A stretch of DNA of 35,723 bases from a virus. The notes under the pieces were generated by a model, which was not told where the DNA came from, did no database searches, and was given only the letters and a program-made list of their open reading frames with translations. The translations under genes and the position numbers were made by a program. Of this stretch, positions 24,619 to 28,527 are shown one piece after another. Positions within the stretch are counted from its first letter, which is position 1. Every line of letters begins with the position of its first letter. The stretch covers positions 1 to 35,723 of IMG/VR virus record IMGVR_UViG_3300005795_000024; one strand, given 5' to 3'.

Positions 24619-24920
24619 AATGACGCGCCTCCATCCAGGCGAAACCATGCAGCGGTCGCAGCACCATCAAAATGACGAGCGACGGTATAGACGCATGCAG
24701 GACGGTTCGAACCTGGAACTTTCACGCGCGCAACGACCTCGAGCACCCCTGAAGCACTAAGCCGACTGCATGCGTGCCGAGCAGCTACAACGCTAAGCCG
24801 GAGCTCCCGCGCAACCTCAGCCGAGGTTAATGATCGCGACGCCAGGAGTTCGCACACTTGGTACGCGACAGGCCCCAGCGCGCCCGCAGGCCTTCCGCGC
24901 TTTGCTCTCCCCGGGATCAT
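24615..24920 (-). CDS. Winged-helix DNA-binding protein
   Basis: The 101-residue basic protein has a clear helix-turn-helix/winged-helix core: CELLASRSLTSAEVARELRL, then AARHACSRLSASGVLEVVARV, and a wing ending in CVYTVARHF. It overlaps the genes on both sides by four bases (ATGA). In related phages such a domain is often fused to replication functions, so it may bind the origin; it could equally be a transcription regulator. The compact size favours a stand-alone DNA-binding subunit. Confidence 0.75.
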   Translation of the reverse strand: MIPGRAKRGRPAGALGPVAYQVCELLASRSLTSAEVARELRLSVVAARHACSRLSASGVLEVVARVKVPGSNRPACVYTVARHFDGAATAAWFRLDGGASL

Positions 24921-25471
24921 TCCTCGCCCCCCAGGGACTGGAGGGTCACCCCCTCATCCGATGCACGCCGGACATTTCGAACCAACCGCAATAGCAGCCG
25001 GATCTCCGCATTCGCCTGCGCCTCGATCTCATCCGCCTCGTGGGCAGTAATCCGCCTATCACGAAGTGCGCCGGCAAGCATGCCGGACATGATTCCGCCT
25101 TGCTCAGAAAGAGTGAACCCCTTCTCCATGATCGCGGTGATGTCGCATGGCCACCGACCGCCAGGCGGCGGCGCGTCCAGCTCGATCGCGGCCAGCTCGT
25201 ACTGGGCTGCGAGAGCAACGAGCCATCCGGTCGCGCGCTCTCGTGTCGTCACGTGGCGGCGCAGGTACTCAGTGATCAGCTCAGCGTCTTCAATCGCCAA
25301 ACGTTCAGCAGGGTCGGACCCGTCAAGCTTCTTATAGAGCGTCTTGGGGGAAATCCTGCGCTCCCTGAACTCCGTGGCCCAGGCGCAAAAGCCGTTGATG
25401 CCGTCCGGAGCTGCGCGGAGCGCGTTGTAGATCGCCCCACGCCAATGCGAATCCGCATAGCGTTTCGTCAT
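24917..25471 (-). CDS. CII-like (CP76-type) regulatory protein
   Basis: The 184-residue protein shows the arrangement of the Phage_CP76 family. A DNA-binding N-terminal half contains ISPKTLYKKLDGSDPAE and LAIEDAELITEYLRRH. A helical C-terminal half contains GGIMSGMLAGALRDRRITAHEADEIE. CII-type proteins activate repressor and integrase promoters to favour lysogeny. It has a strong GGAGG ribosome binding site and follows cro in the leftward operon as in lambda. The family assignment is from memory of the pattern; an alternative is a general phage regulator of the same fold. Confidence 0.7.
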   Translation of the reverse strand: MTKRYADSHWRGAIYNALRAAPDGINGFCAWATEFRERRISPKTLYKKLDGSDPAERLAIEDAELITEYLRRHVTTRERATGWLVALAAQYELAAIELDAPPPGGRWPCDITAIMEKGFTLSEQGGIMSGMLAGALRDRRITAHEADEIEAQANAEIRLLLRLVRNVRRASDEGVTLQSLGGEE

Positions 25472-26080: not shown

Positions 26081-26237
26081 CCATTCCCCGCATAGCTCGT
26101 GCGACCCGGCCGTTCTTCCGCATGTCGTCCAAGACGGCCTGCACAACGGCCGCCTGCAGATCGATAGACTCCGCCGCTCGGCGTTCCAACGCCGGCCGAA
26201 TAAGCCAAAGGATGAACCGTGCATAGAGACCGCCCAT
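25956..26237 (-). CDS. Small protein following cro, unknown function
   Basis: The 93-residue protein starts at an ATG that overlaps the cro stop (TGATG), with AGGAGG seven bases upstream; a GTG three bases earlier is the alternative. The N-terminus is hydrophobic (GLYARFILWLIRPAL) and may be a membrane anchor or amphipathic helix. It is followed by helical VVQAVLDDMRKNGRVARAMRG. The DMRKNGR motif recurs at the end of the tape-measure protein, where the underlying DNA is also nearly identical over 20 bases. The C-terminal third is low-complexity and overlaps the convergent plus-strand gene. Function unknown. Confidence 0.55.
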   Translation of the reverse strand: MGGLYARFILWLIRPALERRAAESIDLQAAVVQAVLDDMRKNGRVARAMRGMVNPDCSVTLLNREGCSPLSGPARPGKDAPPPQRSKGPGEES

Positions 26238-26509
26238 CACGCCGCCTCCTGCTGGTCGGTCGGCGCGATCCCGCGGGAGCGCTTACGCTTTCGCAGCACA
26301 TCCCAGCGGAAAGACGGGAGCAATTCTTCGCAACGAATGCCCGTCGCTTCCTCAATCAGGGGGCAGTGTTCTGAAGGAAGGGGCCGCTTCAAATGAACCC
26401 ACTCGTGAACGCTGACCGCGCTGACCTTGAGAATGCGGGCAAGCGCCGCCTGCCCTCCGGCCAAGCCGCAGGCACGAGCTAAGGCTTCGTGTCGTTTTTT
26501 CATGTCCAT
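26237..26509 (-). CDS. cro: Cro-like repressor (YdaS type)
   Basis: The 90-residue basic protein carries a helix-turn-helix (GGQAALARILKVSAVSVHEW, about 18-37) followed by LPSEHCPLIEEATGIRCEELLP, the typical arrangement of YdaS/Cro-like proteins. It is the first gene of the leftward operon and divergent to cI. It should bind the TTAGGC palindromes between them. The predicted transcription start falls on its first base, so it may be translated from a leaderless mRNA; an in-frame second ATG lies two codons later. Confidence 0.85.
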   Translation of the reverse strand: MDMKKRHEALARACGLAGGQAALARILKVSAVSVHEWVHLKRPLPSEHCPLIEEATGIRCEELLPSFRWDVLRKRKRSRGIAPTDQQEAA

Positions 26510-26515
26510 GCCGCA

Positions 26516-26543
26516 TTATTAGGCGACGCCTAATTGCTGTCAA
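26516..26543 (-). promoter_or_regulatory. Leftward early promoter (PR-like) for cro
   Basis: On the minus strand a perfect TTGACA (26543-26538) is followed after 16 bases by TAATAA (26521-26516). The spacer is filled by the perfect operator palindrome at 26519-26533. Transcription is predicted to start at 26509, the A of the cro ATG. Repressor bound to this operator would exclude RNA polymerase. Confidence 0.8.
26519..26533. promoter_or_regulatory. Operator 1 (perfect palindrome)
   Basis: TTAGGCGACGCCTAA is a perfect seven-base inverted repeat around a central base. It lies between the -35 and -10 elements of the leftward promoter. The identical sequence occurs at 28466-28480. Confidence 0.85.
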
Positions 26544-26557
26544 TAGGAATTGCCTAA
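26543..26557. promoter_or_regulatory. Operator 2 (imperfect palindrome)
   Basis: ATAGGAATTGCCTAA keeps the right half-site GCCTAA and most of the left half-site. Its centre is 24 bases from that of operator 1, and it touches the upstream edge of the leftward -35 element. Confidence 0.6.
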
Positions 26558-26578
26558 TGCGGCATCACAAGGCGAAAG

Positions 26579-26593
26579 TTAGGCAATGCTTAA
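26579..26593. promoter_or_regulatory. Operator 3 overlapping the cI start
   Basis: TTAGGCAATGCTTAA differs from the consensus mainly in its right half and contains the cI ATG (26586-26588). Its centre is 36 bases from that of operator 2. A repressor bound here at high concentration could block cI itself, as at lambda OR3. Confidence 0.65.
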
Positions 26594-27683
26594 TGGAACT
26601 GCCCTAGGAGCTGCCATTAAGGCGGCCATTGATCTGAAGATCGCCAGCGGCGCTGTGCCCTCGCAGGCGGCAATCGCACGTCATTTCAATGTGAAGCCTC
26701 CGTCTATCCACGACTGGATCAAGAAAGGCTCGATTTCCAAGGACAAGCTTCCTGAGCTTTGGCGTTATTTCTCAGATGTTGTAGGCCCAGACCATTGGGG
26801 CCTTAAAGCCTGGCCGGATATGGGCTCGGCCGGTGTGGAGGAACGGGTCACCACGGACAAGCCGTGGCCCTTCCGGACGATCTCCGAAGACCAGATCCAC
26901 GCTCTACCCGCCGCCCAGTTGAGCGCCCTTGAAGGCGCGATTGCTCTGGCCATAGCTCAACTGAAAATCGGCATTCAGGTCTCGCATCCGGCGCCATTGA
27001 CGCCGCCGGCCGTGCTGTCACTACGCACGCATAAACCTGGCGGCTTGGTCGACATGGAGCATGCGGACGACGCCTTTCCTATGCGAATCCAAGGCCTCCC
27101 CCCTGCCCCGTGGGAAGGCGGAAATACAACACACCAAGCGGAGGCGAATCCCAAGATACGGCTGAGCACCCAGACTGGAGTGGTGGCCAATGTCGCCCCA
27201 GGCGAGCCATATGCAGCGAACGACAAGTTCGAAAAAGTACCGGAAATGGCTGACGTTCGCCTGGCCGCCGGCGACGGCATCGAGAACCACCTTGAAGAAC
27301 AGACCGGTGTGATGCACTTCCGCCGTTCGTTCCTGCGCGCCGTGGGCGCGGATGCAGGGAAGGCTCGCGTCGTCTACGCCAAGGGCGACAGCATGGAACC
27401 CATCATTCGTGATGGGGCCGCCCTACTGGTGGTACCAAATGAAGATCTGACCGTGCGCGACCTCGCCGCGGGCGGCGTCTACGCCATCAACTACGACGGC
27501 AAGATGATCGTGAAGACGGTGACGCGTGACCGCCTGACGAAACAATGGGTCGCGCGCTCGTTCAACCCGGGGTATCCGGACATCCCGCTTGAGAACGGTA
27601 CGCCAGTGCGGGTGCTGGGACAGGTTGTCTGGGCTGGCGCCAGGCTGCGGGATGACGAAGCGGGGCAGTGGATGCGCTCGTAG
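26586..27683 (+). CDS. cI: CI-type repressor with S24 self-cleaving domain
   Basis: The 365-residue protein has an N-terminal helix-turn-helix (SQAAIARHFNVKPPSIHDWI, about 26-45), a long variable linker and a C-terminal LexA/CI-like peptidase. S269 in YAKGDSMEP is the nucleophile and K310 in GKMIVK the general base. A228-G229 in RLAAGDG is a plausible cleavage site; the spacings (40 residues to Ser, 41 from Ser to Lys) fit lambda CI and LexA. It should maintain lysogeny and be inactivated by RecA after DNA damage. The ATG lies inside operator 3, and no strong promoter is seen upstream, so its promoter is probably weak or activated. The protein is longer than lambda CI (237 residues) because of the linker. 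Confidence 0.92.
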   Translation: MLNGTALGAAIKAAIDLKIASGAVPSQAAIARHFNVKPPSIHDWIKKGSISKDKLPELWRYFSDVVGPDHWGLKAWPDMGSAGVEERVTTDKPWPFRTISEDQIHALPAAQLSALEGAIALAIAQLKIGIQVSHPAPLTPPAVLSLRTHKPGGLVDMEHADDAFPMRIQGLPPAPWEGGNTTHQAEANPKIRLSTQTGVVANVAPGEPYAANDKFEKVPEMADVRLAAGDGIENHLEEQTGVMHFRRSFLRAVGADAGKARVVYAKGDSMEPIIRDGAALLVVPNEDLTVRDLAAGGVYAINYDGKMIVKTVTRDRLTKQWVARSFNPGYPDIPLENGTPVRVLGQVVWAGARLRDDEAGQWMRS

Positions 27684-27741
27684 AGTCCTACAGTAGCCGG
27701 CATTGCCTTTTCGAAAACCTGCACCAGCATAAGTAAATCTG

Positions 27742-27912
27742 ATGTTTGACCATGAGATTTCATATACGCCTGACGAACGGGCGCAGCGACTCGAGGATTC
27801 TCTGGCCGAATCACGCCGGCAGTCCAATGAATTGCTGCGCGCCATAAGCGTAAGGCTGACGCTAATCTGCCTGTTACTCGCCGGCATTCTCGGGTACTTG
27901 GTGCAGAAATGA
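27742..27912 (+). CDS. Small tail-anchored membrane protein
   Basis: This 56-residue protein consists of a charged helical N-terminal part (TPDERAQRLEDSLAESRRQS) and a single hydrophobic C-terminal segment at about residues 37-54 (SVRLTLICLLLAGILGYLV). It should sit in the inner membrane with its head in the cytoplasm. It follows cI by 58 bases on the same strand and precedes a lipoprotein gene, inside the segment transcribed in the lysogen. The function is unknown; the position is that of lambda rex genes, which act in exclusion. Confidence 0.65.
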   Translation: MFDHEISYTPDERAQRLEDSLAESRRQSNELLRAISVRLTLICLLLAGILGYLVQK

Positions 27913-27929
27913 ATGCTCCAACTTCAACC

Positions 27930-27953
27930 GCCTGCAGGGTGCAGGCATAAAAT
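27930..27953 (+). promoter_or_regulatory. Inverted repeat before the lipoprotein gene
   Basis: GCCTGCA and TGCAGGC (27930-27936 and 27940-27946) are separated by GGG and followed by TAAAAT at 27948-27953, about 30 bases before the lipoprotein ATG. It could be an operator at a weak promoter or an RNA hairpin affecting translation. Confidence 0.3.
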
Positions 27954-27984
27954 CGGCAATCTATTGGACGCAAAGGAACCGAAG

Positions 27985-28356
27985 ATGAGGGCTCTAGCTA
28001 TCGTCGTACTTTCAGCAGTTTTGCTGCTGACCGGGTGCGCGCCAGGATCCGATGCTTGGGTGAACGCGCAGTACGGGAGCGACGGAATTTCTGTGGATGA
28101 AATGGACGCTCACAAAGGTCTGTATCGGGTATCGGTCATGAACACAGTCGATTTTGGCTGGAATGGAGACAACCCAGATGACCGTCTACGTGTCGCCCGG
28201 GTGGCTATGAAGAAGATTTGCGCAGATGCAACTCTCGTCTCAGAGGTGCCAATTCCAATGGGGTCTTACCTGGGATCGCGGGATCGGACTAAGTACTCAA
28301 TGACCATGCGCTGTCCAAGCGGTCAATCAACTTCAGCGCAATCTGTGTCCGGCTGA
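27985..28356 (+). CDS. Lipoprotein in the immunity operon
   Basis: The 123-residue protein starts with a signal peptide (MRALAIVVLSAVLLLTGC) whose lipobox LLTGC gives C18 as the lipidated residue. Residue +2 is Ala, which does not retain lipoproteins in the inner membrane, so an outer-membrane location is likely. The mature domain is small (about 105 residues) and has two more cysteines (MKKICADA and TMRCPSG) that could form a disulfide. AAGGA lies nine bases upstream of the start. It ends the cI transcription unit before a strong terminator. Phage lipoproteins expressed in lysogens often change the surface or block superinfection, but this one has no recognised family. Confidence 0.8.
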   Translation: MRALAIVVLSAVLLLTGCAPGSDAWVNAQYGSDGISVDEMDAHKGLYRVSVMNTVDFGWNGDNPDDRLRVARVAMKKICADATLVSEVPIPMGSYLGSRDRTKYSMTMRCPSGQSTSAQSVSG

Positions 28357-28397
28357 TCTGTCGTAGGCTTCGGCCACCATCACACCCTTAGCCACGC

Positions 28398-28422
28398 ATG
28401 CCCGCCTCGAGCGGGCATTTTT
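28398..28422 (+). terminator. Intrinsic terminator of the immunity operon
   Basis: ATGCCCGC (28398-28405), loop CTCGA and GCGGGCAT (28411-28418) are followed by TTTTT. It ends the cI-lipoprotein unit and insulates it from the rightward early promoter about 30 bases downstream. Confidence 0.88.
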
Positions 28423-28440
28423 ATGCCTGCAAGAAAACAA

Positions 28441-28455
28441 TTAGGCACCGCCTAT
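28441..28455. promoter_or_regulatory. Operator 4 at the rightward promoter
   Basis: TTAGGCACCGCCTAT is an imperfect copy of the operator palindrome. Its last base is the first base of the -35 TTGACA, so a bound repressor would cover the upstream edge of the promoter. Confidence 0.75.
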
Positions 28456-28483
28456 TGACATAAAATTAGGCGACGCCTAATAT
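28455..28483 (+). promoter_or_regulatory. Rightward early promoter (PL-like)
   Basis: TTGACA (28455-28460), a 17-base spacer and TAATAT (28478-28483) form a near-consensus sigma-70 promoter. The perfect operator at 28466-28480 occupies the spacer, as at the leftward promoter. Transcription should start near 28490 and give a leader of about 38 bases to the first gene. Confidence 0.85.
28466..28480. promoter_or_regulatory. Operator 5 (perfect palindrome)
   Basis: TTAGGCGACGCCTAA is identical to operator 1 and lies between the -35 and -10 elements of the rightward promoter. Confidence 0.85.
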
Positions 28484-28527
28484 CCTTCCAAGTTCTCACT
28501 ACCCGGTGAGCAACAGGGAGAACAGCA

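Follow-up and report, generated by a model that had tools for sequence, protein, structure and literature searches.

A lambda-like phage immunity region with Rac-type operators and a predicted RacR-S24 hybrid CI repressor

Introduction

In phage lambda, the immunity genes run in the order cro, cI, rexAB and PL. The Rac prophage of Escherichia coli carries the set racR-ydaS-ydaT, and EMSA, ChIP and thermal shift have shown that its repressor RacR binds the Rac intergenic region (PMC5700373). RacR forms octamers, and four inverted repeats were counted in its operator region (PMC11014345). In a study of RacR at lysN, mutation of CCTA-containing motifs was reported not to be decisive (PMC6715736), which speaks against the reading proposed below, although the lysN sites are imperfect. 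In the prophage CP-933P, the CI-like repressor PaaR2 and a YdaS protein footprint on overlapping operators that cover PRM and PR, and a PL-type promoter is likewise controlled (PMC8630535).

The DNA analysed here, a viral record 35,723 bases long, is referred to as the window, and its full length was used. It is best explained as carrying the immunity region of a lambdoid temperate phage with Rac-type specificity, in which five CI operators control the early promoters Pcro and PL, a reading to which we assign a probability of about 0.92. It resembles CP-933P in pairing a CI-like repressor with a YdaS-type Cro but differs from it in that there the operator consensus is GTTTAGTAA, the repressor is a different one and a paaR2-paaA2-parE2 toxin-antitoxin operon is present.

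Gene content of the region

The cro gene (26237..26509, minus strand) encodes a 90-aa protein of the YdaS family (Pfam YdaS, 7e-18) that shares 47% identity with YdaS of E. coli in a 74-aa alignment. Divergent from it is cI (26586..27683, plus strand), encoding a 365-aa repressor in which a RacR-type head (residues 1-77; 73% identity with RacR of E. coli K-12 over 77 aa) is followed by a C-terminus matching Peptidase_S24 (4e-13). PDB sequence searches with CI and with Cro gave no match, nor did a search of Rfam, and the AlphaFold model of CI is weak, with a mean pLDDT of 54. On the cro side lies a CII-like activator (24917..25471, minus strand; PHROG 101, 2.5e-18), and this side continues with replication and Q-like proteins and then with terminase, portal and tail genes; the opposite side carries a DUF2303 protein, a dNMP kinase and a ParB-like protein. 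The nearest full-length relative of CI is in a genome of Achromobacter marplatensis and nearly all comparable matches are from Achromobacter or Bordetella, and for this reason the host probably belongs to the Achromobacter group, although the DNA match of the terminase to Achromobacter genomes is weak.

Between cI and the second operator cluster is a cargo interval (27684-28397), which was compared with the equivalent interval in relatives L005-L018. Two proteins are encoded in the cargo slot (27742..28356, plus strand), one of 56 aa (27742-27912) and a lipoprotein-like one of 123 aa (27985-28356), and family searches with both were without match. In the relatives, the interval from cI to OL varies from 72 bp, in which case it is empty, to approximately 2.7 kb, and is filled by small genes that are unrelated and may lie on one strand or the other, several of them with membrane or lipoprotein signals. 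That such genes might exclude other phages is only a guess, made by analogy with the position of rexAB. The cI/cargo unit is closed before OL by a predicted intrinsic terminator (28398..28422, plus strand), which is kept in nine of the ten OL regions aligned.

Operators and early promoters

The operator word is TTAGGC-N3-GCCTAA, a palindrome of 15 bp that occurs three times between cro and cI and twice before the rightward early operon. Operator 1 (26519-26533, TTAGGCGACGCCTAA) has no mismatches and lies inside the spacer of Pcro, where it overlaps the -10; operator 2 (26543-26557, ATAGGAATTGCCTAA) has two mismatches and adjoins the Pcro -35; and operator 3 (26579-26593, TTAGGCAATGCTTAA), with one mismatch, spans the start codon of cI at 26586. 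On the other side of the cargo, operator 4 (28441-28455, TTAGGCACCGCCTAT; one mismatch) lies 5' of the PL -35 and touches it, and operator 5 (28466-28480), which again has no mismatches and is the same 15-mer as operator 1, is placed within the spacer of PL at a distance of 25 bp from operator 4. Outside these five sites, the best match to the word in 35.7 kb has two mismatches (29016). Among palindromic words of the form 6-N3-6, TTAGGC is the best in the two intergenic regions, with five sites, and in 2000 simulated intergenic regions (first-order Markov) the maximum was three sites per word, which was reached once.

Both early promoters are built around a perfect operator. Pcro, the PR equivalent (26515..26543, minus strand), has TTGACA at 26543-26538, a 17-bp spacer and AATAAT at 26520-26515, and the PL equivalent (28455..28483, plus strand) has TTGACA at 28455-28460, a 17-bp spacer and TAATAT at 28478-28483, so that the final bases of each perfect operator double as part of the -10. 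A scan of 25.4-29.6 kb found exactly these two promoter-like sites, compared to a mean of 1.4 in shuffled sequence, i.e. without enrichment, and it is their conservation in relatives which makes them credible. For the cI promoter (PRM) no convincing candidate was found, and those detected were weak, e.g. TAATGC at 26555-26560, for which the -35 is poor. Just past the PL -10 there is an inverted repeat, CTCAC-TACCCG-GTGAG (28495-28510), which is boxB-like by position; it is not evidently conserved among relatives.

The operators are well conserved in the relatives. When 14 phages were aligned, the central base of operator 1 was its sole variable position, and operators 2 and 3 were nearly frozen. 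Operator 3 overlaps codons 1-3 of cI, and all 19 sequences compared use CTT for the leucine at position 2, despite CTT accounting for just 18 of the 107 leucine codons in four CI genes, which argues for selection acting on the DNA. At the other gene start, ATG26509 of cro is kept in all 14 aligned phages, while the in-frame ATG26503 is lost in several; since ATG26509 sits only about 6 nt beyond the Pcro -10, the cro mRNA is probably leaderless.

The first-pass annotation, made from the letters of the window, had proposed a compact lambda-like immunity circuit with three palindromes between cro and cI and two before the rightward operon, of which two were identical and perfect, and with operators inside both early promoters. 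All five palindromes were located, the copies starting at 26519 and 28466 are the perfect pair, and each of them fills a 17-bp spacer after TTGACA; to this can be added that operator 2 carries two mismatches and that operator 3 contains the cI start codon. The circuit as a whole is upheld by the divergent cro and cI genes, the three-site OR and the OL pair at a second early promoter. Relatives keep the five sites in register, and a CII-like gene and replication genes lie beyond cro, which supports the same reading. Repressor binding, whose absence the annotation named as refuting, has been shown for the homologue RacR on its own operators (PMC5700373) and is predicted for CI and Cro of the window.

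Compared with lambda, the layout is its mirror image, with divergent cro and cI, an OR of three sites and an OL lying in the direction of cI, and the cargo sits where rexAB does. Operators within the early promoters and an S24-type CI are also common to both. The operator word and the repressor heads differ, however, as does the number of OL sites, which is two in the window and three in lambda. Furthermore, the window has a Cro of YdaS type and places operator 3 over the start codon of cI, and the leaderless candidate is cro, whereas in lambda it is cI.

The CI repressor and its predicted induction

From its sequence, CI is a hybrid in which a RacR-like head is predicted to be joined to an autoprotease of the LexA/CI type. 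We infer that CI and Cro of the window bind the five operators, and by analogy Cro would recognise the same word as CI. In a lysogen, CI dimers on operators 1, 2, 4 and 5 would shut Pcro/PR and PL, and the spacing of 24-25 bp would position neighbouring dimers for cooperation. The two clusters lie 1.9 kb apart, and contact between them may form a DNA loop of the lambda kind. Operator 3 would be where cI expression is stopped, either by abundant CI or, once induction has occurred, by Cro.

As the RacR-like head carries an S24 autoprotease tail, induction is probably by SOS cleavage: once DNA is damaged, the S24 domain would sever the DNA-binding head of CI from its tail, releasing both promoters from repression. 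It could be argued instead that the region is a remnant in which CI and the operators are intact and CI is inactivated by an antirepressor and not by SOS cleavage. Control of prophages by antirepressors is known (PMC3121763), and the existence of Rac-type relatives with a short tail that lacks S24 means that other triggers exist in the group. Against this, the window CI does have the S24 domain, and its A228-G229, S269 and K310 are nearly invariant among relatives, hence an antirepressor-controlled remnant is considered unlikely and SOS cleavage is the preferred trigger.

Operator words and CI heads among relatives

If the word is read by the CI head, relatives that share the head but not the tail, or the tail but not the head, act as natural controls. 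The sample consisted of 40 distinct repressors that carry the 77-residue head, taken from viral contigs, phage records and genomes, and these occur in phages of the Achromobacter group, Nitrosomonas, Mixta, Klebsiella and E. coli. Three OR sites were found in register in 38 of the 40, namely in all 16 repressors with a long C-terminus, in 21 of the 23 whose tail is short (138-168 aa), and in a 238-aa protein that has an S24 motif. Both exceptions are short-tailed and among the most diverged heads, at 60% and 49% identity. The downstream pair, exactly 25 bp apart, is present in addition for 31, and for several of the rest the available sequence stops short; among the 16 distinct relatives with a long CI the OL pair was found in 13, and also in L243 once more of its flank was read.

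The opposite result was obtained for tail-only relatives, defined as matching CI only from residue 19 or later: none of the 56 entries (35 viral and 21 genomic, redundant entries included) has the word in register. The S24 C-terminus is 65-92% identical to that of CI in ten aligned relatives that share the C-terminus only. For instance, the Achromobacter/Bordetella phages L017, L029, L041, L054, L084 and L250 share this C-terminus with the window, but their heads are unrelated or strongly diverged and their operator words differ. A de novo search of the tail-only relatives returned other OR palindromes in some, such as TAGCAA-N4 (L084) and AATCGC-N4 (L029 and L041), several of these cases also having an OL-like pair 23-34 bp apart, and nothing above background in others. 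The words of L029, L033, L041, L047 and L084, including TCTTAG-N4 and TTTAGT-N4, are candidates for further immunity groups.

When the search was reversed and started from the operator, 84 of the 109 viral stretches containing TTAGGCGNCGCCTAA had the head within 300 bp, and at least four of the remainder represent fragments from the OL side of such phages. Several copies of TTAGGCGNCGCCTAA were also found in L148, L168, L176, L208 and L209, but here they belong to a longer palindrome, TGTTAGGCGNCGCCTAACA, and no RacR-type domain is close by; these five were therefore set aside as a different system. In each of them the longer palindrome is scattered over several places. In a sample of genomes from the class of Mixta (369 genomes) and from its family (295), the head was present in two genomes only, which suggests that, known Rac-like prophages apart, the system is sparse.

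The first-pass annotation had suggested that the operator word should define an immunity group and that other phages be searched for it. The search found the word in register beside 38 of the 40 head-bearing repressors, and the suggestion stands in a stronger form, as the word tracks the N-terminal domain of CI across bacterial classes. This can be viewed as a natural experiment in the modular rebuilding of phage immunity, where the operators go with the head irrespective of the tail attached to it, and a different head on an unchanged tail is accompanied by a different operator word.

These controls also bear on which protein uses the sites. Cro is a helix-turn-helix protein as well, of the YdaS family, and the binding assigned to the window CI is a prediction; the palindromes could then be bound only by Cro, or by a host regulator, with CI binding something else. 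However, the word follows the head and not the host or the tail in the counts above, and the homologous head of RacR binds a region that bears it (PMC5700373), which makes such an arrangement very improbable. That the palindromes function chiefly as hairpins in RNA or DNA (terminators or attenuators) and not as protein sites is hardly credible and was rejected on position and counts, for although two of them score as terminator-like on the minus strand, the number of such matches equals the shuffle mean, they lie inside promoters in a fixed register with the -35 and -10, and their arms are constant while the central bases vary. Control by CI through these operators is thus retained.

A further repressor, that of L286 (at 5001, plus strand), has the same head and operators with a clearly diverged S24 tail (GNGFSMEP), and perhaps represents another tail swap.

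Comparison with the Rac prophage of E. coli K-12

The operator word is not new, as it is already known from the Rac prophage. The intergenic region of Rac in K-12 contains the identical 15-mer (1420321-1420335) and three variants, the last of which lies over the repressor start codon. The 15-mer, the head (73%), the Cro/YdaS protein (47%) and the operator over the repressor start are therefore common to Rac and the window, and Rac likewise has two downstream sites, 25 bp apart, on either side of a TTGACA. The two differ in that Rac has four OR repeats where the window has three, and its second cluster is 0.6 kb away as opposed to 1.9 kb. RacR itself is 158 aa with another C-terminal domain and no S24, in contrast to the S24 tail of the window CI. 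Since S24 replaces the short oligomerization C-terminus, CI was classed as having a RacR-type head only and not as an orthologue of RacR; and because RacR is without S24, it must be inactivated by something other than the SOS trigger. Klebsiella phage KpF5 and Escherichia phage vB_EcoS-683R6 stand closer to Rac in this regard, with RacR-type repressors and operators in the same register as the window, but with a short RacR tail lacking the S24 domain of the window CI.

Taken across two bacterial classes, it seems somewhat more probable than otherwise that head and operator word travel together while tails are swapped, that RacR and the Achromobacter CIs would recognise each other's operators despite their different triggers, and that K-12 has a RacR-controlled PL before ydaG-kilR-recE. 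Two predictions arise: phages whose hosts are very different should show cross-recognition, and E. coli K-12 should possess a second promoter under RacR control. The OL-like pair in question is located at 1419654-1419668 and 1419629-1419643 of NC_000913.3 (complement), with TTGACA between the two sites, before ydaG. The RacR papers searched contained no description of this racR-ydaG pair, though one may exist elsewhere. In cells expressing C.Csp231I, an imported regulator and competitor of RacR, the genes ydaG, ydaF, kilR, ydaE and racC, together with ydaS, are upregulated 40- to 70-fold (PMC11014345), and the rise of the ydaG-racC genes fits what would be expected if RacR holds this promoter.
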